64,000 nt of DNA, taken from assembly GCF_019737615.1 (NCBI RefSeq), contig NZ_JAHKKS010000001.1:310001-374000 (forward strand). Direction: 5' to 3'. A model generated the notes under the pieces. The model did not search any database. It was not told where the DNA came from and saw only the letters and a list, made by a program, of their open reading frames with translations. This stretch comes from Sphingobium xanthum (GTDB lineage Bacteria > Pseudomonadota > Alphaproteobacteria > Sphingomonadales > Sphingomonadaceae). This document shows, piece after piece, positions 50,094 through 62,923 of this stretch. Positions within the stretch are counted from its first letter, which is position 1, and the number at the start of each line of letters is the position of its first letter. The translations under genes and the position numbers were made by a program.

Positions 50094-51113
50094 TCATCCG
50101 GCCGGTTGCGGGATGCCGAGTAGCGTGGCCGGGTTCTCGACCATGATCTTGCGCAGGTCCGCGGTGCTGAGGCCCTTGGCGCGCAGTTGCCCGGCGACCA
50201 TGGCAATCATCTCGTCCGGCGGAGCGCGGCCGACCTGGCCGGAGTCGCTGCTCAGGATCACATGATCAAGGCCGATCGCCCGCATCGCGTCGACATATTG
50301 CTGGGTCGTGAAAGTCGAGCGCTCGCCGACCAGGAAGCCGGCGGCGAACTCGATAAAGGCCCCGAGTCCGGCGGCTTCCTTCATTTGCGCAAGGCTCATC
50401 TCGATCGGATGGGCGATCGCATGTGTGACGATGATGCGCGCGATACCCTGCTTCTTCGCCTCGCGGATGACCATCAGGGCTTCGGCCGGCGACAGGTGCC
50501 CGGTGGAGAGGGCGAGCGGAACGCCCGTATCGCGAACCTTGGCCGTTGCGATCGCGGCAATGACGGCCTTCGTCTCGGGCAGAAGCGCGCCGTCCTTCGA
50601 CACGCGCACGAACGGATTGTTCGGCGTTTGCGAATGGCGAATATTATTCTCGCTGTCCCAGGTGGGCATGCTGACGATACGAGCCCGGCCACCCTTCACC
50701 TCGGCGAAATGGTGGACGGCCGCCGGATTGAGGCCGCCGACGGTCAGGTTCAGGCTGAGCTGCCCGAAAATCTCGACGCCCGGCACCACCTTGTTTGCGA
50801 GATAGGCGAGCTGTGCCGTCTGGTCATAATGCTGCTTGATGAGGAAGCCGCGCATCCCCGCGGCCTCTGCGCGCCTGGCCATGTCGATGATGTCGAGCGA
50901 ACGGGCCATTTGCGCGCTGTGCGGGCCGAAGCTGTCCGGATCCAGATGCGAATGGATGTCGATCGCTTGCCGGAGCAGAGCCTTGTCGGCAGCCGTGGCC
51001 GGCGGATAGTTCTTGCCGGACGGCTCGCCCTCATGCGCATGCAGGGGCGCCGCGCCGGCGAGCAAGAGGGCAGGCGTGATCGCGGCGAGCCAGCGGCTTC
51101 TGGAAATCGGCAT
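50094..51113 (-). CDS. Secreted amidohydrolase-superfamily protein (DUF6282-like)
   Basis: 339 aa. Signal peptide (cut near LHAHEG), then a TIM-barrel metallohydrolase pattern: AIDIHSHLDPDSFG (HxH metal ligands) at about 52-65, IKQHYD near 93, LSTGHLSP, VTHAIAHP and the closing LSSDSGQVG (metal Asp). MRGFLIKQHY and FGQLSLNLTVGGLNP point to the DUF6282 group. Substrate unknown. It is divergent from a carboxymuconolactone-decarboxylase-like gene and could take part in degrading a lactone or amide in the periplasm. ATG behind AGGGAGCTTAACCC. Confidence 0.82.
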   Translation of the reverse strand: MPISRSRWLAAITPALLLAGAAPLHAHEGEPSGKNYPPATAADKALLRQAIDIHSHLDPDSFGPHSAQMARSLDIIDMARRAEAAGMRGFLIKQHYDQTAQLAYLANKVVPGVEIFGQLSLNLTVGGLNPAAVHHFAEVKGGRARIVSMPTWDSENNIRHSQTPNNPFVRVSKDGALLPETKAVIAAIATAKVRDTGVPLALSTGHLSPAEALMVIREAKKQGIARIIVTHAIAHPIEMSLAQMKEAAGLGAFIEFAAGFLVGERSTFTTQQYVDAMRAIGLDHVILSSDSGQVGRAPPDEMIAMVAGQLRAKGLSTADLRKIMVENPATLLGIPQPAG

Positions 51114-52089: not shown

Positions 52090-52272
52090 TTGTGGCCTGC
52101 GCGCAACAGGGGCTTCGAGCGGTTTTTCTAGGAATTGAGCCGATAATGCGCTGCCGAGGGGGGCGGAGCGCACTCGAGTTGTGACCGGTCGCAAAGAAAG
52201 TAGATTGCAACCTAATCGATTTCGGTGGATATCTACCTCCCTACATACAGAAGAAACCAGGGAGAGAGATTG

Positions 52273-55191
52273 ATGAAATATTCTGCTGTGGGGTTGCGCG
52301 AGCGCACCTGCCTCCTGGCCGTCGCCACGAGCCTGCTGGCGGCTCTGCCTGCCGTCGCCCAGACCGGCGCCGATGACGCCGCGAGCGACGAAGAGGAAGC
52401 AATCGTCGTCACCGGCTCGCGTATCGCGTCCGGATTCGACCGCCCGACGCCCGTCTCCGTCATGGGCGCCGAGCGCCTCGAAGCGCGCGGCGCAACCAAT
52501 CTCGGCGATGCGCTGAACGAGCTGCCCGCCTTCCGCGCGACCAACACGCCCGCCTCGACCGGACTCGGCGCTGCCGGCGGCTATGTCGGCGGCCGCATCC
52601 TCGACTTGCGCGGCCTTGGCGCCGTGCGCACGCTCACCCTGCTCGACGGCAAGCGCTTCGTCCCCTCGACGACGCAGGCGACAGTCGACACCAACATGAT
52701 CCCGTCGATCCTGCTGCAGCGCGCCGAAGTCGTGACCGGCGGCGCATCGGCCGTCTATGGTTCGGACGCGGTCTCGGGCGTCGTCAACTTGCTGATCGAC
52801 AAGAAGATGACCGGCTACAAGGTCAACGGGCAGCTGGGCTTCTCGCAGGAAGGCGACAATTTCACCCGCCAGTTCGGCGCGGCCGGCGGCTGGCAGCTGG
52901 GCGAGACCGTCCACCTCATCCTGGGCGGCGAGTTCGAAAAGGCCGAGGGCGTGGAATCCTGCCCGCAGCGCGACTGGTGCGCCAACGGCTTCATCAACAT
53001 CAGCCGCAATCCCGGCGTGACCAGCATTCCGGCCAACAATATCCTCGCCGGCGTCTATCCCTGGACGGCGGCCTATAACGGCATCACCACGCCGCCGAGC
53101 TCGGCCTATACCGGCCGCCTCGTGCCGACATTCCGCGCGATCGACGGGATCGGCTTCCGCGCCGACGGCACGCCGTTTCGCACGACGCAGGGCGTCCTGG
53201 CCAACAATCTCTATCAGCAGGGCGGCACCAATGACGGCCCGGGCGAGAACATCTATTTCGACTTCCCGATCGTCTCGCCGACCGAGCGCTACAACGGCAT
53301 GGGCTTCCTCAGCTGGGACGCGACGCCGGACCTGACCGTCGAGCTCGGCTTCAACTATGGTCATGGCGAGGGCCGTCACCGCGCGGTCGCCTATCGCAAC
53401 ACGGCGATCGCGATCCAGGCGGACAATCCCTTCATTCCGAGCTCTTCGGACCCGACGCTCGACCTGCGCACGATCATGGCGCAGTCCGGCCTCACGAGCT
53501 TCACGCTGGGCAAGGGCTTCAAGGACATCGGCCCTGGCGACCTGATCGTGAAGAACAATGTCTATCGGTTCGTGGCCTCGGCCGCCTATGACATCGGCAA
53601 CAGCTGGAAGGCGGACATCTACTACCAGTACGGCCGCAACGAGTTCCGCAGCGACATCATCGGCGGCACGATCACCTCGCGCATTCTGAAGGCTCTGGAT
53701 GCGGCGCCGGGCCCGAACGGGACCGTGGCCTGCCGCGTGAACGTCGATACCAACACAACGAATGACGATGCGGCTTGCGTTCCGCTCAATCCGTTCGGAT
53801 CGGGCCAGGGCGCGACCTTCGCCGCAGCCAAGGCCTATGTGAAGGCCAATGCCTGGCAGACCAACAACACGACGCAGCACGTGGTCGCCGCCAACCTCAC
53901 CGGTTCGCTGATCGAGCTGCCGGCCGGCCCGCTCGGCGTCGCGGTCGGCGCGGAATATCGCAGCGACACGGTGAGCGGCGATGCGGACGCGAATTCCAAG
54001 GCGCTGGCCTTTTTCACCGGCAATGGCTCGGTCATTTCCGGCAAGATCGAGGTCGCGGAAGCCTATGGCGAGGCCGAGGTTCCGGTCCTGCGCGACGTCA
54101 CCGGCTTCCAGGAGCTGAGCCTCAACGGCGCTGTCCGCCGGACGCACTACAAGCGCTCCAGCGCGACGGTCCCGAGCAGCACCGTCAACGTGACGACCTG
54201 GAAGGTCGGCGGTGTCTGGGCGCCGGTCGACGCGATCCGCTTCCGCGCCACCAAGTCGCGCGACATTCGCGCGCCGAACGTGGTGGAACTGTTCGGGCCG
54301 CTCACCAGCGCGCAGGGCATCCTCAACGATCCAGCGCGCGGCGGGCAGCAGACGGTTGCACCGATCACGCTCGGCTCCAACCCCAATCTGCGTCCGGAAA
54401 AGGCCGACACCTTCACGGTGGGAGTCGTGTTGCAACCGAGCGATGGCGTGCTTGGTCGCTTCCGCGCCTCGGTCGATTATTACGACATCAAGATCAAGGA
54501 CGCGATCAGCACGCTCGGCCAGCAGAATATCGTGACGCGCTGCTCGCAGGGCGATACCCTGAGCTGCTCGCTCATCACACGCGAAGGCGGCAGCCCGACC
54601 GGTGTCATCACCAATATCCGCGACGTCGTGCAGAATGTGAGCCAGCTCAAGGCGCGCGGCATCGACATTGAACTCGGCTATCGCCAGCCGATCGGCGGCA
54701 GCAGCTCGCTCAACCTGTCCGTTCTGGCGAGCCACATGATCGATCTCATCACGGTCGATGCGGTCGGGCCGGTGGAGCGTGCGGGCCAGACCGGCCTGCG
54801 CGGCGGTACGCCTCCGGGTATCCCGGACTGGACGGTCGATGCGACCGCCGGTCTGGACATCGGCGAGCGCTTCTCCTTCTCGACCCACCTGCGCTGGATC
54901 AACAAGGGCTTCTACAACGCGGCCTTCGTCGGCGCCGAGCAGCCCGGCTACACGGTCACCCGCCCGGACAGCTCCAGCACCAACGCCATGCCCGCGCGCA
55001 CCTATGTCGATATCCTCGGCACGGTGAAGGTGCCGGTGAGCGATCGCTCGAAGCTGAACGTCTATTTCGGCGTCGACAATCTGTTCAACGTCGATCCGCC
55101 GGCATTCCCGGGCGCGAACGGCAGCGGCAACAACGTGCTCTTCAACCCCGTTGGCCGCATGTACAAGGCGGGCATCCGGGCGACTTTCTGA
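52273..55191 (+). CDS. TonB-dependent receptor
   Basis: 972 aa outer-membrane receptor. The signal peptide is cut near AVAQTG. A plug domain (about 50-200) opens with EAIVVTGSRIASGFDRPTPV and contains LRGLGAVRTLTLLDGKR and EVVTGGASAVYGSDAVSGVVN. The large 22-strand barrel ends GRMYKAGIRATF. It shares the plug wording with the receptor at 57136, so both belong to the same oligo- or aromatic-substrate receptor group common in sphingomonads. Ligand unknown, but the neighbourhood is catabolic. ATG with GGAGAGAG upstream. A strong terminator follows. Confidence 0.93.
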   Translation: MKYSAVGLRERTCLLAVATSLLAALPAVAQTGADDAASDEEEAIVVTGSRIASGFDRPTPVSVMGAERLEARGATNLGDALNELPAFRATNTPASTGLGAAGGYVGGRILDLRGLGAVRTLTLLDGKRFVPSTTQATVDTNMIPSILLQRAEVVTGGASAVYGSDAVSGVVNLLIDKKMTGYKVNGQLGFSQEGDNFTRQFGAAGGWQLGETVHLILGGEFEKAEGVESCPQRDWCANGFINISRNPGVTSIPANNILAGVYPWTAAYNGITTPPSSAYTGRLVPTFRAIDGIGFRADGTPFRTTQGVLANNLYQQGGTNDGPGENIYFDFPIVSPTERYNGMGFLSWDATPDLTVELGFNYGHGEGRHRAVAYRNTAIAIQADNPFIPSSSDPTLDLRTIMAQSGLTSFTLGKGFKDIGPGDLIVKNNVYRFVASAAYDIGNSWKADIYYQYGRNEFRSDIIGGTITSRILKALDAAPGPNGTVACRVNVDTNTTNDDAACVPLNPFGSGQGATFAAAKAYVKANAWQTNNTTQHVVAANLTGSLIELPAGPLGVAVGAEYRSDTVSGDADANSKALAFFTGNGSVISGKIEVAEAYGEAEVPVLRDVTGFQELSLNGAVRRTHYKRSSATVPSSTVNVTTWKVGGVWAPVDAIRFRATKSRDIRAPNVVELFGPLTSAQGILNDPARGGQQTVAPITLGSNPNLRPEKADTFTVGVVLQPSDGVLGRFRASVDYYDIKIKDAISTLGQQNIVTRCSQGDTLSCSLITREGGSPTGVITNIRDVVQNVSQLKARGIDIELGYRQPIGGSSSLNLSVLASHMIDLITVDAVGPVERAGQTGLRGGTPPGIPDWTVDATAGLDIGERFSFSTHLRWINKGFYNAAFVGAEQPGYTVTRPDSSSTNAMPARTYVDILGTVKVPVSDRSKLNVYFGVDNLFNVDPPAFPGANGSGNNVLFNPVGRMYKAGIRATF

Positions 55192-55368: not shown

Positions 55369-55938
55369 ATGGTCAGGGAGGCTTTGCCCGCGAGCGCTGA
55401 GCGGAACGTCAGGCAGACGGCGCCGCATGGCGGCTATTCGGTCGATGTCGTCGCGCGCCACCTCGATAACTTCTACGGCGGCGATCAGCCGAACGAAAGC
55501 GACCATCGCTACTTCCGGACCACGCGGGAGCTGGTCGTGGTCGCGCGGCGCTGGCGCAAGCTCGCCAATGACCGGATCAAGAATATCGGCCAGAACATGG
55601 CGCGCTGGGAAACGCTCTATCTGATGGCCAGCTCGGACGAGGAACTGACGCAAGGAGAGCTGGCCCGCGTGGTCGGCGTCAAGGGGCCGACCATGGTCCA
55701 TATGCTCAATTCGCTGGAGCGAGACGGCCTGATCGAGCGCTATCAGGGCGCGCAGGACAAGCGCATCACGCACAATCGCATCACGCCCAAGGGCGAGCAG
55801 GCGACGCGCGACATCATGGCGATCACCAACAATCTGCGCGCCGAGGTACTGCGCGACATCGATCCCGCCAAGCTGGACATTGCGTTGGACGTGCTCGAGG
55901 CCATCCATGCGAAGCTGGACGATCTGTCGGGAGCGTAA
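55369..55938 (+). CDS. MarR-family transcriptional regulator
   Basis: 189 aa. A roughly 45-residue N-terminal extension with SVDVVARHLDNFYGGDQPNES precedes a winged helix-turn-helix: MARWETLYLMASSDEELTQGELARVVGVKGPTMVHMLNSLERDGLIER, with wing QDKRITHNRITPKG. No sensing cysteine, so it is probably ligand-responsive (aromatic acid or CoA-thioester type). Bracketed by the TonB receptor and an alpha/beta hydrolase, it likely controls this catabolic region. The 19-base palindrome at 51326 is a candidate target. Start ATG with GGGAAAGAGA upstream. Confidence 0.88.
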   Translation: MVREALPASAERNVRQTAPHGGYSVDVVARHLDNFYGGDQPNESDHRYFRTTRELVVVARRWRKLANDRIKNIGQNMARWETLYLMASSDEELTQGELARVVGVKGPTMVHMLNSLERDGLIERYQGAQDKRITHNRITPKGEQATRDIMAITNNLRAEVLRDIDPAKLDIALDVLEAIHAKLDDLSGA

Positions 55939-56048: not shown

Positions 56049-57008
56049 TCAGCCGCGCCGCTTCATGAATTCGAGTACGGTCGCGTTGAACAGATCCGGC
56101 CGTTCCCAATAGCCCGAATGGCCGCACTCGGTGAACATGACGAACTCGCTGTTCGGGATCGTCCTGTTGAACAGACGGCCGAGCGGCGGCGTCGAGCCGG
56201 GATCGGCATCGCCGTAGATCAGCAGCGTCGGCGCGCTGATCTTCGCCAGGTCCGCCATGCTCGCCGGACCGCCATAGGGCTGGGCCGGCAGCCCCTGCTG
56301 CTGCACGCGTGCCTTGTGAGCGAAATCCTTCCACAGCGCCCAACCTTCCTTGGCCAGCGCGCGATAGGAAGGGCTCAGCTCATTATAGTCGTGCGGCACT
56401 GCGGCATTCCAGGCCTGGCCCACGGTAGTGAAATAAGGGGCAAGCTCGGGTGCGCCGATCAGCACGATCGAATGCGCGATCGTGATCGTGCGCGTGCGCT
56501 GCGGGTAGCGCAACGCCCAGCCCGCCGCGAGCAGCCCGCCGCCCGCCGTGCCGACGACATGGCACTTGTCGATCTTCAGATGGTCCATGAGCTGCCGCAT
56601 ATCCTCGACGGCCGTGCTACCGCCGGGATTGTCCGACGTGGTCTCGCGATAGCTGCGGCGGGAATAGCCGATCACGCGATAGCCGGCGGCTCGGAAGACC
56701 TGCTGCTGATAGCCCCAGACATGGCCGCTGCCGGTCATGGCGTGCTGTAGCACCACGACTTCACCGGGGCCGCCCGTGTCCCAGTACCAGATGTTGACGC
56801 CGTCCAGCTTCGCGATGCCCGCAGGAGCTGTCATGGCCGGGGGCAGGGGAGGCACGGTGAAGGGATTGGGATCGCGCGGTGGCAGGATCTTGCCCTTGGC
56901 TGCCGAGGTCTGGGCCTGGGCCGAGGTGGCGGCTCCCGCAAGAACGGCGGCGCCCATCAGGGCGCCGCCGGCAAGAAGGTCTCGGCGGTTGGGATTGCCG
57001 GTCGTCAT
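56049..57008 (-). CDS. Exported alpha/beta-hydrolase fold protein without nucleophile serine
   Basis: 319 aa. N-terminal Tat-like signal (NRRDLLAGGALMGA, cut near AQAQT), then an alpha/beta-hydrolase core with LQHAMTGSGHVWGYQ (oxyanion region) at 88-102. The acid Asp is in IYGDADPG and the His in ECGHSGYWERPD. The nucleophile elbow, which should be G-x-S-x-G, reads HVVGTAGGG, with Ala155 in the serine position (codon GCG, one base from TCG). It is therefore a non-hydrolytic family member or an inactivated enzyme. The remaining fold is intact and the frame undamaged. It sits between the MarR gene and a TonB receptor. Confidence 0.85.
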   Translation of the reverse strand: MTTGNPNRRDLLAGGALMGAAVLAGAATSAQAQTSAAKGKILPPRDPNPFTVPPLPPAMTAPAGIAKLDGVNIWYWDTGGPGEVVVLQHAMTGSGHVWGYQQQVFRAAGYRVIGYSRRSYRETTSDNPGGSTAVEDMRQLMDHLKIDKCHVVGTAGGGLLAAGWALRYPQRTRTITIAHSIVLIGAPELAPYFTTVGQAWNAAVPHDYNELSPSYRALAKEGWALWKDFAHKARVQQQGLPAQPYGGPASMADLAKISAPTLLIYGDADPGSTPPLGRLFNRTIPNSEFVMFTECGHSGYWERPDLFNATVLEFMKRRG

Positions 57009-57135: not shown

Positions 57136-60100
57136 TTAGAACTGCACGCGCATACCGGCCTTCCAGCGCATGCCGAACGTGTCGAAATACACCGGGTTGG
57201 TCGGATAGGCGGCCGGGTTCGTGGGGCTTGTGCCCACAGCGATCGGCGGCCGCTTGTCGAACAGATTCTCGATCGTGCCGAATACCTCGATATTCTGATC
57301 CTCGGATCCGATCGGAATTTTGTAGGACATGGCGATGTTGACATAAGTCGCCGATTTCACGCGGTTGAACGAGACACTGTTCGCCGCGCTCGGGGAATAG
57401 CCAGGGTCTTCCGGCCCGATCCGCTCGACGTTGAGGATGCCCTTGCCGATATGGCGCACGCCGACGGTGTAGTTGAAACGATCCGTCGTATAGCCGACCA
57501 GCGCATTCCACATCCATTTCGGCGTGGGGTAGAAGTCGCCGCCTTCGATGACGGGACCGGTCTGTCCGGCATAGTCCCTCGCCACGGCACCGGGACCCTG
57601 CTGCACGATGAAGTCATATTGGTGATTGAGCAGGAAGCGCGCGTCGAGAGCGCCGGGCAGTGACGCCGCTATGTCCGACAGCGGCAGGCGGTAAGACGCC
57701 TCGAAGTCGAAACCGCGCACTGTCATCAGCCCGACATTCGCCGAACCGGCATCGACGCGGGTGATGTCGGTGGGTGAGGCGAAGGTCACCCGGTGGCACA
57801 ACAGATTGGCTCCGATGCAAAGATCGACCACGCGCTGTCCGCTGAGGTTGCTGATCGCATCCTTCAGCTTGATCTGGTACCAGTCGAGCGACACACGGAA
57901 GCCCGGCAGGAACTGCGGTGAGAAGACCGCGCCGATGGTCGTGGTGTCCGCCTTTTCCGGAGCGAGGGTGAAATTGCCGCCGCTGTAGATCGGCGTCGCA
58001 TCCGCCGCGTCTGCGCCAGGCGTTCCGCCGACGGCGGGATTCGTCTTGTTCGGATTTTGCACACGCCCCTGAGCCGTGCCCGATTCGGTCGGAGCCGTCT
58101 TCAGGAACAGTTCGCGGAAGCCGGCTGCCCGGAAGTCGCGCGACTGGGTGGCGCGCAGACGCAGCCCGCCCGCGATGTCGTAGATGCCACCGATCTTCCA
58201 GCTGGTGCCGTTCACCGTACGCGACTGGTTGGTGAGGGTGTCGGTGCTCTTGTTTTTCGTGAAGCGGACGGCGCCATTGAGTTCCAGCATCTCGCCCAGC
58301 GCGAAATCGCGGAATACCGGGATATTCGTCTCGGCGAAGCCTTCGACAACCCTGATCTTGCCAGCATAATCGAGGCCGAACGAGAAGGCGAAGTCGTTCG
58401 GGTTCACGCCGCCATGGGTCACGTCGCCCTTTTCATCGCGATAGTCCACGCCCAGCGCCATGCTGATCGGGCCGGCGCCCCAGGGATCGACTAGGTCGCC
58501 CTGGACACTGCCCGCGAGCACATGCTGCCGAAATTCGAAATCCTCGACGGCCGGCCGCCAGGCGAAGGCGATGGCATCGGCGCTCATGTTGCCGCTGCCG
58601 AACAGATTGAGCGGTCTGCACGCGGCGTTGAGCGCTCTCAGTCCGGCGACATAGTCGCTCGAGAACCGCCCCGTCGCCACGCCGGCCGAAATGACGCTCT
58701 CGTCGAGCGGACGGCAAACGATCTGGCTGTTGGGGTTGTTGGGATCCTGCCGCACGGCATCGATCGCCATGAAGAAGGCGTCGTTGTGGCGCGAATAACG
58801 AACGGACGAGTGCCGCTTGTTCTTGCCATATTGATAGTAGAAGTCCCAGGTCCAGTTCGCGAACAGCTCACCATTGAGGCCCAGCACGCCGCGGAACGCC
58901 TGAGCATCGACCGAAAGCTCGTTGTCCAACTCGTCATCAGGGTCCTTGCCCAAGCTGAACGTGTAGGGCGCGATCGGGTAAGGCGACGAACCCGGCGCCT
59001 GCGGCGCGTTCATGATCGCCGCCACGGAAGCGGGAAGAAAGGCGTTGTCGGCCCGGATCGACATCGTCGAGCGCGTGGCTGCCGTCAGCGAGCGGCTGTT
59101 CGCCTTCCGATCCGCATAAGAGAGTTCCGTGGAGACCGTCAGCGTGTCGGTAAGATCGTACCGGCCGGCGAGATAGGTCGAGTAACGGCGCACGGGCGTC
59201 TGGATATATTGATCGCGATAGGCGGAGTCATTGTCGCCGCCGTGCGCGACGCCGCCGACGAGCTTGGGCCCATAGAGGCCGGGATCGTAGGGGATCAGCC
59301 TTTTGCCGTCAGGCGTGAAGACTTTGTCTATCAACTCCGGCGGCGGGTTAATCGCGGGGAAGATCGCGCTGTAAACGGAGCCGGTGGTGCTTCCCCCCTG
59401 GTAGAAGTTGCGGATCACGCCGTCGATGGCGTTGTAGACGAGGCCGAGGCCCGGCCCGATGATATATTGAGGCAGGCCGAAGCCGACCGATCCCGGCACG
59501 TTGTAGCCGGATGTATTGTTGCTGCTCGAGCGGCCGGCCTGGTTCTGGTTGAGCGTCGTGCGATCGTTGATGTTGTAGTCGGGACGTATGGTGCCCTGGT
59601 TCAGGACCGTGCCCCAGCTTTCGCCGCACCAGTCGCGCGTGTCCGCGCATTGCTGGATGCCCCAGTTCCGCTGATATTCACCGCCGACCATGATGTGACC
59701 GCGCCCGTCGCCGAACTTGAGGCCATAGGCAGCTGCGGCGTGGAACGACTTGCCGTCGCCACGACCAGTCTGGCCATAGTCGAGTTGGCCCTTGAAGCCT
59801 TCGAGATTGTTGTCGAGAATGATGTTGACGACACCGGCGATGGCATCGGAGCCATAGGCGGCCGAGGCGCCGCCGGTGACCGTCTCGACGCGGCCGATCA
59901 TGACCGAGGGAATGAGGTTGAGATCGACCTGGCCGCCATCCGAGGTCGGGATGAAGCGCCGCGTGTTGACCAGCGTCAGCGTGCGCGTGCCGAAGGTCGG
60001 GTTCAGGCCGCGCAGGTTGGCGAATTGCGAACCGGCGTTGGCCGACAGGCTGGTGCCCGAGGTGGCATCGGACTGTGAGGCGATGTTCTGCGGCATGAGC

Positions 60101-60345
60101 TTGACCACTTCGGCCGCGTTGGTCTGGCCGAGCTGCTGGATCAGCCCCGAGTCGACGACGGTCACGGGGACCGGCGAGTCGAAGCCGTTCTTCTTGATGC
60201 GCGACCCGGTGACGAGGATTTCGCCCACATCGGCGCTTTCCGCCGCTGCCGCCGTGTCCGTCTGCGCAAAGCTGGCCGTTGGCATCATCAGGGCCGCAAC
60301 GGCGGTCCCGCAAACGAGTATGGCCCTTTTCGATGAGATATTCAT
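57136..60345 (-). CDS. Large TonB-dependent receptor
   Basis: 1069 aa outer-membrane receptor from the ATG at 60345 (GGGGAG five bases upstream). Signal peptide (cut near SFAQT). The plug has EILVTGSRIKKNGFDSPVPV and LRGLNPTFGTRTLTLVNTRR, then VETVTGGASAAYGSDAIAGV. The long barrel carries large extracellular loops with paired cysteines (QQCADTRDWCGESW) and ends WKAGMRVQF. Same receptor group as the gene at 52273. The ECF sigma factor immediately upstream on the same strand probably controls it. Substrate unknown. Confidence 0.93.
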   Translation of the reverse strand: MNISSKRAILVCGTAVAALMMPTASFAQTDTAAAAESADVGEILVTGSRIKKNGFDSPVPVTVVDSGLIQQLGQTNAAEVVKLMPQNIASQSDATSGTSLSANAGSQFANLRGLNPTFGTRTLTLVNTRRFIPTSDGGQVDLNLIPSVMIGRVETVTGGASAAYGSDAIAGVVNIILDNNLEGFKGQLDYGQTGRGDGKSFHAAAAYGLKFGDGRGHIMVGGEYQRNWGIQQCADTRDWCGESWGTVLNQGTIRPDYNINDRTTLNQNQAGRSSSNNTSGYNVPGSVGFGLPQYIIGPGLGLVYNAIDGVIRNFYQGGSTTGSVYSAIFPAINPPPELIDKVFTPDGKRLIPYDPGLYGPKLVGGVAHGGDNDSAYRDQYIQTPVRRYSTYLAGRYDLTDTLTVSTELSYADRKANSRSLTAATRSTMSIRADNAFLPASVAAIMNAPQAPGSSPYPIAPYTFSLGKDPDDELDNELSVDAQAFRGVLGLNGELFANWTWDFYYQYGKNKRHSSVRYSRHNDAFFMAIDAVRQDPNNPNSQIVCRPLDESVISAGVATGRFSSDYVAGLRALNAACRPLNLFGSGNMSADAIAFAWRPAVEDFEFRQHVLAGSVQGDLVDPWGAGPISMALGVDYRDEKGDVTHGGVNPNDFAFSFGLDYAGKIRVVEGFAETNIPVFRDFALGEMLELNGAVRFTKNKSTDTLTNQSRTVNGTSWKIGGIYDIAGGLRLRATQSRDFRAAGFRELFLKTAPTESGTAQGRVQNPNKTNPAVGGTPGADAADATPIYSGGNFTLAPEKADTTTIGAVFSPQFLPGFRVSLDWYQIKLKDAISNLSGQRVVDLCIGANLLCHRVTFASPTDITRVDAGSANVGLMTVRGFDFEASYRLPLSDIAASLPGALDARFLLNHQYDFIVQQGPGAVARDYAGQTGPVIEGGDFYPTPKWMWNALVGYTTDRFNYTVGVRHIGKGILNVERIGPEDPGYSPSAANSVSFNRVKSATYVNIAMSYKIPIGSEDQNIEVFGTIENLFDKRPPIAVGTSPTNPAAYPTNPVYFDTFGMRWKAGMRVQF

Positions 60346-60476
60346 GCTCACTCCCCTACTCCGGCTGCATTGGTCGCAGGCCCTGTTAGGGAGAAGATGC
60401 GCGGTGGGATGAAACCCGCCGCCGTGACGCAAAATTTCTGCCTGGCGAAAACTGCCGGCCCTGCGGCACCGCCGCC

Positions 60477-61076
60477 TCAGGAGCGGATTTCCCAACCCTC
60501 CATCACGTCCGCGCCTGTTCGGCCGAGCTGACGGACGAAGCTCGACAGGCTGCGGGAGAGGCACTTCTGGACAGCGTTCGCCGTCATGCCCAGCCGGTCG
60601 CCGATCTCGTTGTGCGACAGGCCATGGGACAGGCGCAGCGTCATCGCCGTGCGGCTGGCCTTGGGCAGATCGGCGATCATGCTCGCGAGCAGCCGCAACT
60701 GCTGGCGGTCGGCCGCCTGAACGTCAGGCCCGGGCTCGTCCGACGCGATGCCGATCTGCTCGATCTGCTCGACTGCCTGAATGTCCACGACGCGCGAGCG
60801 GCGCGCGTGCATGAGCACGACAGAGCGCGCCGCCTGGAAGAAATAAGCGCGCGGATAGCGGATGCTCTCGACATCATCGAGCGTGGCGAGCTTCGCATAA
60901 GTCTCCTGGACGATGTCGTCGATGTCGAGATCATGCGGCACGCGCCAGCGCAGGAGCTGCGCGCGCAGTGCGGGTTCATGGGGCAAGATGTTCCGGCTGA
61001 GCCACGCGGCGCGCGCGTTCGAAAAATCGAACGAGCGTGGCAATGCGTGCCGCTCCCTTCTGCTTCCCTCCGGCAT
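60477..61076 (-). CDS. ECF sigma-70 family RNA polymerase sigma factor
   Basis: 199 aa. Sigma region 2 includes DIDDIVQETYAKLATLDD and IRYPRAYFFQAARSVVLMHARR. Region 4 is LPKASRTAMTLRLSHGLSHNEIGDRLGMTANAVQKCLSRSL. This is the FecI-like iron/TonB-receptor class. Start ATG at 61076 with AAGGTGGG upstream. The 131-base gap to the TonB receptor on the same strand suggests regulation of that gene. No FecR-type anti-sigma lies on either side, which is unusual for the FecI group. How it is activated is unknown. Confidence 0.92.
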   Translation of the reverse strand: MPEGSRRERHALPRSFDFSNARAAWLSRNILPHEPALRAQLLRWRVPHDLDIDDIVQETYAKLATLDDVESIRYPRAYFFQAARSVVLMHARRSRVVDIQAVEQIEQIGIASDEPGPDVQAADRQQLRLLASMIADLPKASRTAMTLRLSHGLSHNEIGDRLGMTANAVQKCLSRSLSSFVRQLGRTGADVMEGWEIRS

Positions 61077-61228: not shown

Positions 61229-62923
61229 ATGAAGAAACTGATCAATGACCCCGTTCATGTGGTCGATGAGATGGTGGAGGGCCTTGTCCGCGCGGACGAC
61301 CGCCTGATTCTCCTTGCCGACGAGACCGTCATCGTCCGAGCGGACTACGATGCGGTGAAGCAGGCGGGCAGGGTCGCGATCCTTTCGGGCGGCGGCTCGG
61401 GCCATGAGCCGGCCCATGCCGGCTATGTCGGTGCGGGCATGCTGACCGGCGCGATCGCCGGTGCCGTCTTCACCTCGCCGAGCGTCGATGCGGTGCTGAA
61501 GGCGATCCTGACGGTCGGCGGCGCGGCGGGCGTGCTGCTCATCATCAAGAATTATACGGGCGACAAGCTCAATTTCGGCCTCGCCGCCGAGTTTGCGCGG
61601 GCGCGCGGTATTCCGGTCGAGATGGTCATTGTGGGTGACGACGTCGCGCTCGGTGACGGCAATGTTGCGGTCGGGCGTCGGGGCATTGCGGGCACGATTC
61701 TCATCCACAAGATCGCAGGTGCGGCGGCCGATGCGGGACTCAGCCTCGCGCATGTGCGCGACGAGGCGCAGGCGGCGGCCGACAATCTTGCCAGCATGGG
61801 CCTCAGCCTCACGCCCTGCACGGTGCCTGCCGCCGGCAAGCCCGGCTTCGAGCTCGGCGAGGACGAAGTCGAGTTCGGCCTCGGCATTCATGGCGAGAGT
61901 GGCGTGCGCCGGGGCAAGATCGCCCCGGTGGACGAGATGCTGGAGGAATTGCTTGCCCAGATCGTCAAATATGGTGGCTACAAGAGCGGCGATCGGGTCG
62001 CGTTGCTGGTCAATGGCCTTGGCGGCACGCCCGCGCTCGAGCTGGCCATCGTGACGCGCTATGCGCTGCGGCGGCTGGCCGAACTGGGCATCAACGTTGA
62101 GGCCGCGATGAGCGGGACGTTCCTGAGCGCGCTCGAAATGGCGGGCTGCTCGCTCTCGCTGCTGCGCCTTGACGAGACGCGCGCTGGCCGCTTGCTGGCG
62201 CCGACGCAAGCGGCCGCCTGGGTGCCGCCGAGCCGTCCGGCCGACGAGGTCCGGCGCACCGCCGCGATCGACCTCGGCATCGACGACAGCATCGTCGGTC
62301 CGCAATGGAGCGCCGGGCACGCCGCTGTCTTCGCCAGCGCCATCCACTCCGTCACGGCTGCCCTGCGCGCAGCCGAGCCGGAACTGACGCGGCTCGACAG
62401 TGCAGTCGGCGATGGCGATCTCGGCATCAGCATGTCGCGCGGCGCGGACAGCATCGAGGCGGCCTTCGCCACGCTCGACCTTGAGCATCCGGCCCGCGCG
62501 CTAGCGCAGGTCTCGGCCCTGCTGCGGCGCTGGCTCGGCGGAACGTCCGGCCCGCTCTACGCCATGTTCGTGTTGCGTGCGGCCTCGACCCTGACGCAGG
62601 AGGAGCGCGCCGAGGACCCGGCTGCATGGGGGCGGGCGCTCAAGGCGGCCTGCTTCGGCATGATGGAGCTTGGCGGCGCATCGCCGGGCGACCGCACGAT
62701 GCTGGATGCGCTCGTACCTGCCGCCGATGCTTTTGCGGCCGCGTCGGGCGATGCCGCCACGCGGATCGCCGCGATGCACGAAGCCGCACTGGCCGGTGCC
62801 GAAGCGACGCGGGCAATGCAGCCGCGCCGTGGCCGCTCCAGCTATATTGGCGACCGCGCGACCGGCCATCCCGATCCGGGTGCCGTCGCGGTGTCGATCT
62901 GGATGGGCGCACTCCGGGGCTGA
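61229..62923 (+). CDS. Dihydroxyacetone kinase, DhaK-DhaL fusion
   Basis: ATP-dependent kinase of dihydroxyacetone (or a similar triose or sugar ketone), 564 aa. The N-terminal DhaK domain has LSGGGSGHEPAHAGYVG and the substrate-binding His221 in GLGIHGESGV. The C-terminal DhaL domain, from about residue 365, has DSAVGDGDLG (Mg-ATP site) and GGTSGPLY. This matches the single-chain Citrobacter/eukaryote-type enzyme rather than the PTS-dependent DhaKLM. The ATG follows GGAGAGTCAGC. A putative esterase starts 14 bases after its stop, so both are probably one operon. No glycerol dehydrogenase is visible. Confidence 0.93.
   Translation: MKKLINDPVHVVDEMVEGLVRADDRLILLADETVIVRADYDAVKQAGRVAILSGGGSGHEPAHAGYVGAGMLTGAIAGAVFTSPSVDAVLKAILTVGGAAGVLLIIKNYTGDKLNFGLAAEFARARGIPVEMVIVGDDVALGDGNVAVGRRGIAGTILIHKIAGAAADAGLSLAHVRDEAQAAADNLASMGLSLTPCTVPAAGKPGFELGEDEVEFGLGIHGESGVRRGKIAPVDEMLEELLAQIVKYGGYKSGDRVALLVNGLGGTPALELAIVTRYALRRLAELGINVEAAMSGTFLSALEMAGCSLSLLRLDETRAGRLLAPTQAAAWVPPSRPADEVRRTAAIDLGIDDSIVGPQWSAGHAAVFASAIHSVTAALRAAEPELTRLDSAVGDGDLGISMSRGADSIEAAFATLDLEHPARALAQVSALLRRWLGGTSGPLYAMFVLRAASTLTQEERAEDPAAWGRALKAACFGMMELGGASPGDRTMLDALVPAADAFAAASGDAATRIAAMHEAALAGAEATRAMQPRRGRSSYIGDRATGHPDPGAVAVSIWMGALRG

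Follow-up and report, generated by a model that had tools for sequence, protein, structure and literature searches.

The principle of nucleophile-less proteins on the alpha/beta-hydrolase fold is already known, and the clade that we analyse here looks undescribed: no description of it was found in the literature searched, by titles and the starts of abstracts, and the searches yielded no member that has been characterised. Among the known cases, the cofactor-free dioxygenase HOD (numbered S101/D126/H251) uses its His–Asp pair to deprotonate the substrate; as reported in PMC10548524, S101A leaves kcat unchanged and increases KM 60-fold, and the related AqdC naturally carries Ala at the elbow. 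By this numbering, the acid of HOD is placed 25 residues beyond its elbow. Carboxy-lyases of this fold are described, in PMC11878206, as having a D/E–H dyad without Ser. The reaction of Escherichia coli RutD is unsettled: a revised model suggests carbamate hydrolysis, and E. coli can use uridine without rutD (PMC8113886). Families that keep the Asp–His pair and lack the nucleophile show a common hydrolase fold moving to new chemistry.

The window analysed here, a 64,000-nucleotide stretch of Sphingobium xanthum DNA, encodes such a protein on its minus strand. The open reading frame (56049..57008, -) starts with ATG at 57008 and specifies 319 aa, which score 68.2 bits against the PF00561 (Abhydrolase_1) profile (cut-off 25.8), 52.4 bits against PF12697 (cut-off 26.3) and 29.4 bits against PF12146 (cut-off 27). 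The protein has the alpha/beta-hydrolase fold, given both the PF00561 score above the gathering cut-off and the order of the core strands and helices. In an AlphaFold2 model built from three sequences (mean pLDDT 57.5, pTM 0.62; 124 of the 319 residues at or above 70 and 144 under 50), confidence is good in the core that surrounds the elbow and poor in the cap, residues 181-243 falling below a pLDDT of 50. Strand 149-154 leads straight into helix 157-167, forming the nucleophile elbow G153-T-A155-G-G157 (56538..56552, -; residues 152-158 read VGTAGGG), which was located by alignment, the profile set and the predicted structure alike. At its apex, where a serine hydrolase or esterase would carry a Ser, Cys or Asp nucleophile in GxNxG, the protein has Ala155, encoded by GCG (56544..56546, -). 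Strand 261-266 precedes Asp269 (56202..56204, -), the acid after strand beta7, and strand 287-292 precedes His297 (56118..56120, -), placed by alignment and predicted structure at the site of the catalytic His after beta8. His89 (56742..56744, -) follows strand beta3. The first-pass annotation had read an Ala in the nucleophile elbow, numbered 155, with the acid and the His kept; the translated reading frame and the alignment bear out the former, and Asp269 and His297 supply the latter.

The top Foldseek matches of this protein in the PDB are ordinary Ser-type enzymes (PcaD enol-lactonase, whose entry 2xua is the best fold match, BpoC, MGS-M2, a P. fluorescens esterase and Est816), and the top 50 include Ser-to-Ala mutants of known hydrolases, which appear there because they have the same fold. 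A profile search of the PDB likewise listed ordinary Ser-type enzymes first, the best being esterase 5egn at 107.7 bits. With Ser-type enzymes at the head of its list, the fold search does not discriminate between the rival functions discussed below, and neither search contained a pointer to any non-hydrolytic function. Assignment to PcaD-type 3-oxoadipate enol-lactonases (TIGR02427), the best-scoring NCBIfam family, was rejected, with 66.2 bits against a cut-off of 255.85.

The absence of the nucleophile is not a recent accident. Across 20 aligned homologous domains, 34-85% identical to the window protein, His89, Ser116, Ala155 and Asp269 are invariant (20/20) and His297 is present in 18 of the 20. 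The profile search was then extended to further genomes and plasmids, where 30 domains scored at least 269 bits against the family profile; their elbows comprise 29 Ala, 1 Gly and no Ser, Asp269 is kept in all 30 and His297 in 28. A gap in score separates this clade from the next row, at 155 bits. Of the rows at or below 155 bits, 33 could be read at the elbow, where Ser stands in 29, Ala in 3 and Thr in 1 (9 of the 72 profile rows lacked a readable elbow and were excluded from these counts). The Ser-type rows are the best matches of searches aimed at the window protein and do not sample the superfamily evenly; two later rows outside this count (L113 and L114, 111-115 bits) both have Ser. The elbow codons of the 30 clade domains are 13 GCC, 12 GCG, 2 GCA, 2 GCT and 1 GGG. 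Between the window gene and its relative in another genome of the genus (G058), dS is 0.76 and dN 0.10, giving a dN/dS of 0.13, or 0.10 when the first 40 alignment columns are left out, and the gene is thus under purifying selection. Ala throughout the clade, four synonymous Ala codons and this dN/dS together indicate that Ala155 is a shared residue in a selected gene.

These observations dispose of one suggestion of the first-pass annotation, namely that a single base change (TCG to GCG) had killed an esterase. GCG is indeed one step from TCG, as that explanation requires, and yet Ala occupies the position in every aligned domain, including the closest relative, at 85% identity, which comes from a Sphingomonadales MAG record; a strain-specific mutation or sequencing error was rejected on the same grounds. 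The alignment of close homologues had been proposed as a check, with Ser in all of them as the refuting outcome, and Ser was found in none. Considering also the varied Ala codons and the low dN/dS, we regard the chance that a point mutation inactivated a serine esterase, or that the Ala is a sequencing error, as negligible. Judging from the aligned sequences, it looks like a member of an old, conserved nucleophile-less family and not a broken esterase.

When 59 rows are placed on a tree, all 30 domains without Ser form one branch (SH-aLRT 99), joined with a support of 87 to a group of five Ser-type rows. RutD from E. coli is placed elsewhere, paired with the Ala row L018 (support 99), and since these two group apart from the clade, Ala rows occupy more than one place on the tree. 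The tree was made by a quick method, contains several long branches and is unrooted, which leaves its deep nodes and the polarity of the change uncertain, and it does not show whether Ser was gained or lost; from the prevalence of Ser we infer that it is the ancestral state. Ala-elbow proteins of the hydrolase fold were also seen outside the clade in L018 (G007:C73) and in a minus-strand reading frame of L078 (G587).

The distribution of the clade is patchy, as few genomes were positive at any taxonomic level. Of the 94 genomes of the genus, 5 or more carry a member (G000, which is the window's own genome, G058, G027, G028 and G031; matches above 170 bits). In samples that include the own genome, matches at the set thresholds were found in 8 of 397 genomes of the family, 7 of 296 of the order, 5 of 385 of the class and 3 of 398 of the phylum. 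One of the order matches (G554) and two of the class matches (G729 and G804) are Ser-type, leaving 6/296 and 3/385, and all these counts are lower bounds, given that thresholds differ between searches and that scoring in the wider samples was limited to 5 to 7 candidates per genome. No relative of the Ala protein was found in the viral contigs scanned.

A second position marks the clade. Residue 116, at the end of strand beta4 (56661..56663, -), is Ser in the window protein and Asp in most Ser-type relatives, as judged from the alignment, the tree set and the predicted structure: the 30 clade domains have Ser in 28, Ala in one (L075) and Asp in one (L083), and the 29 rows with Ser155 have Asp in 28 and Phe in one, with Asn in the later Ser155 rows L113 and L114. 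Such a near-complete exchange would be expected if the nucleophile had moved, with Ser116 replacing Asp and serving as a substitute nucleophile or as a proton donor together with His89 or His297. This reading is, however, at odds with several observations. The residue sits at the end of beta4 and not at the elbow in the predicted structure, one Ala-elbow member (L075) has Ala116, and the Gly-elbow member (L083) has Asp116; moreover, Phe or Asn at this position in some Ser155 rows implies that Asp116 is not required there, and the Asp-to-Ser swap may be mere compensatory packing. We therefore consider a relocated nucleophile very improbable. The Gly-elbow member itself (L083:7867-8775, +) comes from a genome, G1183, that also has a regular Ala155/Ser116 member (L081).

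Nearly all members retain both Asp and His without a nucleophile, which favours catalysis and is best explained by general acid/base chemistry. Our preferred reading, which we hold to be probable with a good deal of room for doubt, is that the window protein belongs to a distinct, conserved clade that lacks the Ser nucleophile and keeps the Asp–His pair, and that it is probably a Tat-exported catabolic enzyme in which Asp269 and His297 would provide general acid/base catalysis without an acyl-enzyme. Export, enzymatic activity, reaction class and substrate are what we infer for the window protein. The dyad would act as a general base, the loop that forms the oxyanion hole would bind the substrate, and no covalent acyl-enzyme would arise; the reaction might be that of a lyase, hydratase or decarboxylase, the hydrolysis of an enamine or enol, or a cofactor-free oxygenation, and the product could be an aldehyde or a keto acid.

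The predicted export rests on the N-terminus. The sequence MTTGNPNRRDLLAGGALMGAAVLAGAATSAQAQ was read by eye as a twin-arginine-type signal with a hydrophobic stretch, spanning residues 1-33 (NRRDLLAGG ... AQAQ; 56910..57008, -), and RR occurs within the first 30 residues of 14 of the 16 single-domain rows of the 20-domain alignment. The protein is thus probably exported to the periplasm in folded form via Tat.

In the window, a TonB-dependent receptor (57136..60564, -; Pfam) lies directly upstream of the gene on the same strand, across a gap of 127 bases, and a second one (52225..55191, +; Pfam) and a MarR-family regulator (55369..55938, +; Pfam) lie on the other side. Profile scans further identified a dihydroxyacetone-kinase family protein (61229..62923, +) and a DUF6282 protein, which is amidohydrolase-like (50094..51113, -), and an ECF-type sigma factor and a CMD-family gene are also near. 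In G058, a TonB receptor, the Ala protein, a relative of the dihydroxyacetone-kinase family gene (which adjoins the Ala protein), an MFS transporter and a relative of the DUF6282 gene follow one another on a single strand. Of 17 searched genomes with a clade member, 10 have DUF6282 genes, and these lie on the same contig within 20 kb of an Ala gene only in G000 and G058. The own genome has three of them (window 50094-51113, -; G000:C1:381622-382209; C4:95129-95743), one lying ~7.6 kb past the window end. In the preferred reading, the window copy would most likely act on a small molecule that enters by way of a TonB receptor, is converted in the periplasm, and is then imported and broken down further in the cytoplasm. 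The first-pass annotation had offered, besides the dead esterase, a non-hydrolytic member, for example a lyase, an isomerase or a binding protein, acting on a compound imported by the adjacent TonB receptors; this alternative fits the data better than the dead esterase, with the activity, the substrate and the TonB link standing as conjecture.

The same surroundings would suit a protein that does no chemistry at all: an exported binder or chaperone that offers a ligand to TonB or MFS import and whose Asp and His are structural. A nucleophile is lacking from each of the 30 domains, and the TonB receptor lies directly upstream of the gene both in the window and in G058. The tandem proteins of 592-594 aa point the same way. 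Two of these, each with two Ala-elbow domains, were observed, one in the own genome (G000:C1 607340-609115; L096:10335-12110, -) and one in G031 (C24; L098); Thr replaces the catalytic His in their N-terminal domains, and their C-terminal domains keep both Asp and His. The His-less halves have nevertheless been retained, which, on the sequences at hand, suggests that the fold can at times persist where the Asp–His dyad is incomplete, and since the His is lost in both N-terminal domains, at least these may be only binding or structural. For the clade as a whole, however, Asp269 in 30/30 and His297 in 28/30 domains are not what a pure binder would obviously need, and we give a non-catalytic role an appreciable minority chance.

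Across genomes, the neighbours are heterogeneous. In nominally 26 neighbourhoods (25 loci and the window; the crude GC3-based gene calling failed in the AT-richer L076 and L082 and missed some genes elsewhere, and G027 and G028, which carry near-identical copies, are both counted), aldehyde dehydrogenases occur in 7, Amidohydro_2-type proteins in 6, and TonB receptor relatives in 12, a count that has no control and may reflect how common such receptors are in this group. Genes were assigned by BLAST clustering, and Pfam was used to check some of them, namely eight TonB receptors (two of these from the window), three amidohydrolases and one aldehyde dehydrogenase. Six aldehyde dehydrogenases were compared with NCBIfam: two score above the MMSDH cut-off, one above that for SSADH and three above none of the 25 families shown. 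The MMSDH genes adjoin members in G028 and G284, the G027 copy being assigned by BLAST clustering only. Four neighbouring amidohydrolases have 4-sulfomuconolactone hydrolase as their nearest family, with scores below its cut-off. In L032 and L033 (G028 and G027, near 3.02-3.05 Mb), two Ala-clade genes lie ~3 kb apart with TonB receptors beside them, and an aldehyde dehydrogenase (MMSDH in G028) adjoins one of the two. In the Agrobacterium plasmid pTi_Tun176, the homologue adjoins an intradiol dioxygenase gene. Because the neighbourhoods differ between members, the clade may not share one reaction. An aldehyde or semialdehyde product is hinted at by the semialdehyde dehydrogenases that adjoin some members; the window genes scanned include no aldehyde dehydrogenase.

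A more specific proposal draws on such neighbours: the protein would resemble RutD in function and would turn enamine, carbamate or enol intermediates, formed as N-heterocycles or amino acids are broken down, into a semialdehyde. The residue pattern is shared with E. coli RutD, and in Bosea sp. F3-2 a RidA-family gene ends 4 bases upstream of the homologue, an order that recalls rutC–rutD, with an annotated succinate-semialdehyde dehydrogenase before the RidA gene; the MMSDH genes beside the members in G028 and G284 fit as well. That dehydrogenase of Bosea, however, scores above no cut-off among the 25 NCBIfam families shown, the window genes scanned include neither RidA nor any other rut-type gene, and export of the window protein is probable. 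Identity with RutD (TIGR03611) itself was rejected, with 54.2 bits against a cut-off of 238.5 and RutD outside the 30-row branch on the tree, and the parallel would lead to a reaction that is itself unsettled, from a gene that is not needed for growth on uridine in the sense of its use by E. coli (PMC8113886). On balance, a RutD-like role is unlikely. A composite picture, in which sphingomonads and other Proteobacteria use a mostly Tat-exported Ala155/Ser116 family for base-catalysed bond cleavage by Asp–His in the periplasm, perhaps helped by a relocated catalytic Ser116, and the resulting semialdehydes pass to MMSDH/SSADH-type dehydrogenases, strikes us as rather doubtful. The preferred reading remains the broader one, an Asp269–His297 acid/base enzyme.

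The clade carries a clear sequence mark, Ala155 with Ser116, and its neighbouring group on the tree has Ser155 with Asp116; together with the tandem proteins and their His-less domains, this makes gain and loss of function testable by simple swaps. It also serves as a warning about annotation: the members from Bosea and Agrobacterium are labelled 'alpha/beta hydrolase', a name behind which the lack of the residue that cleaves esters can go unnoticed.

Compared with the described systems, the window protein shares with the Ser alpha/beta-hydrolases (PcaD, BpoC, the haloperoxidase-type esterases and the C–C hydrolases BphD and MhpC) the fold, the Asp after beta7 and the His, and differs from them in having no Ser nucleophile, Ser116 in place of Asp and a Tat-type signal. 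E. coli RutD (b1009) has the Ala elbow with Asp and His kept, reading GHALG where the window protein has GTAGG, with its Asp before LLVP and its His in GGHA; unlike the window protein, it keeps Asp at position 116 and, by eye, is without a signal sequence. The cofactor-free dioxygenases HOD, QDO and AqdC, as described in PMC10548524, have a His–Asp base that does not need Ser, as we propose for the window protein. The acid may be placed differently: the invariant one of the clade is Asp269 after beta7, and that of HOD lies about 25 residues after the elbow, after beta6. At the corresponding offset (25 after the elbow, the S180 column), compared by the HOD offset rather than on an aligned HOD sequence, no Asp or Glu occurs in any of the 20 rows, which weighs against a place in the HOD/AqdC group. 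Acids are found further on, 31 residues after the elbow (position 186) in 17 of the 20 rows, where the window protein has Ala, and at Glu188 (33 after) in the window protein, so that a shifted HOD-like acid, and with it such a kinship, is conceivable. For the carboxy-lyases of this fold and the methylketone synthase MKS1, an acid–His dyad or a His without Ser has been reported as well (PMC11878206, PMC10548524).
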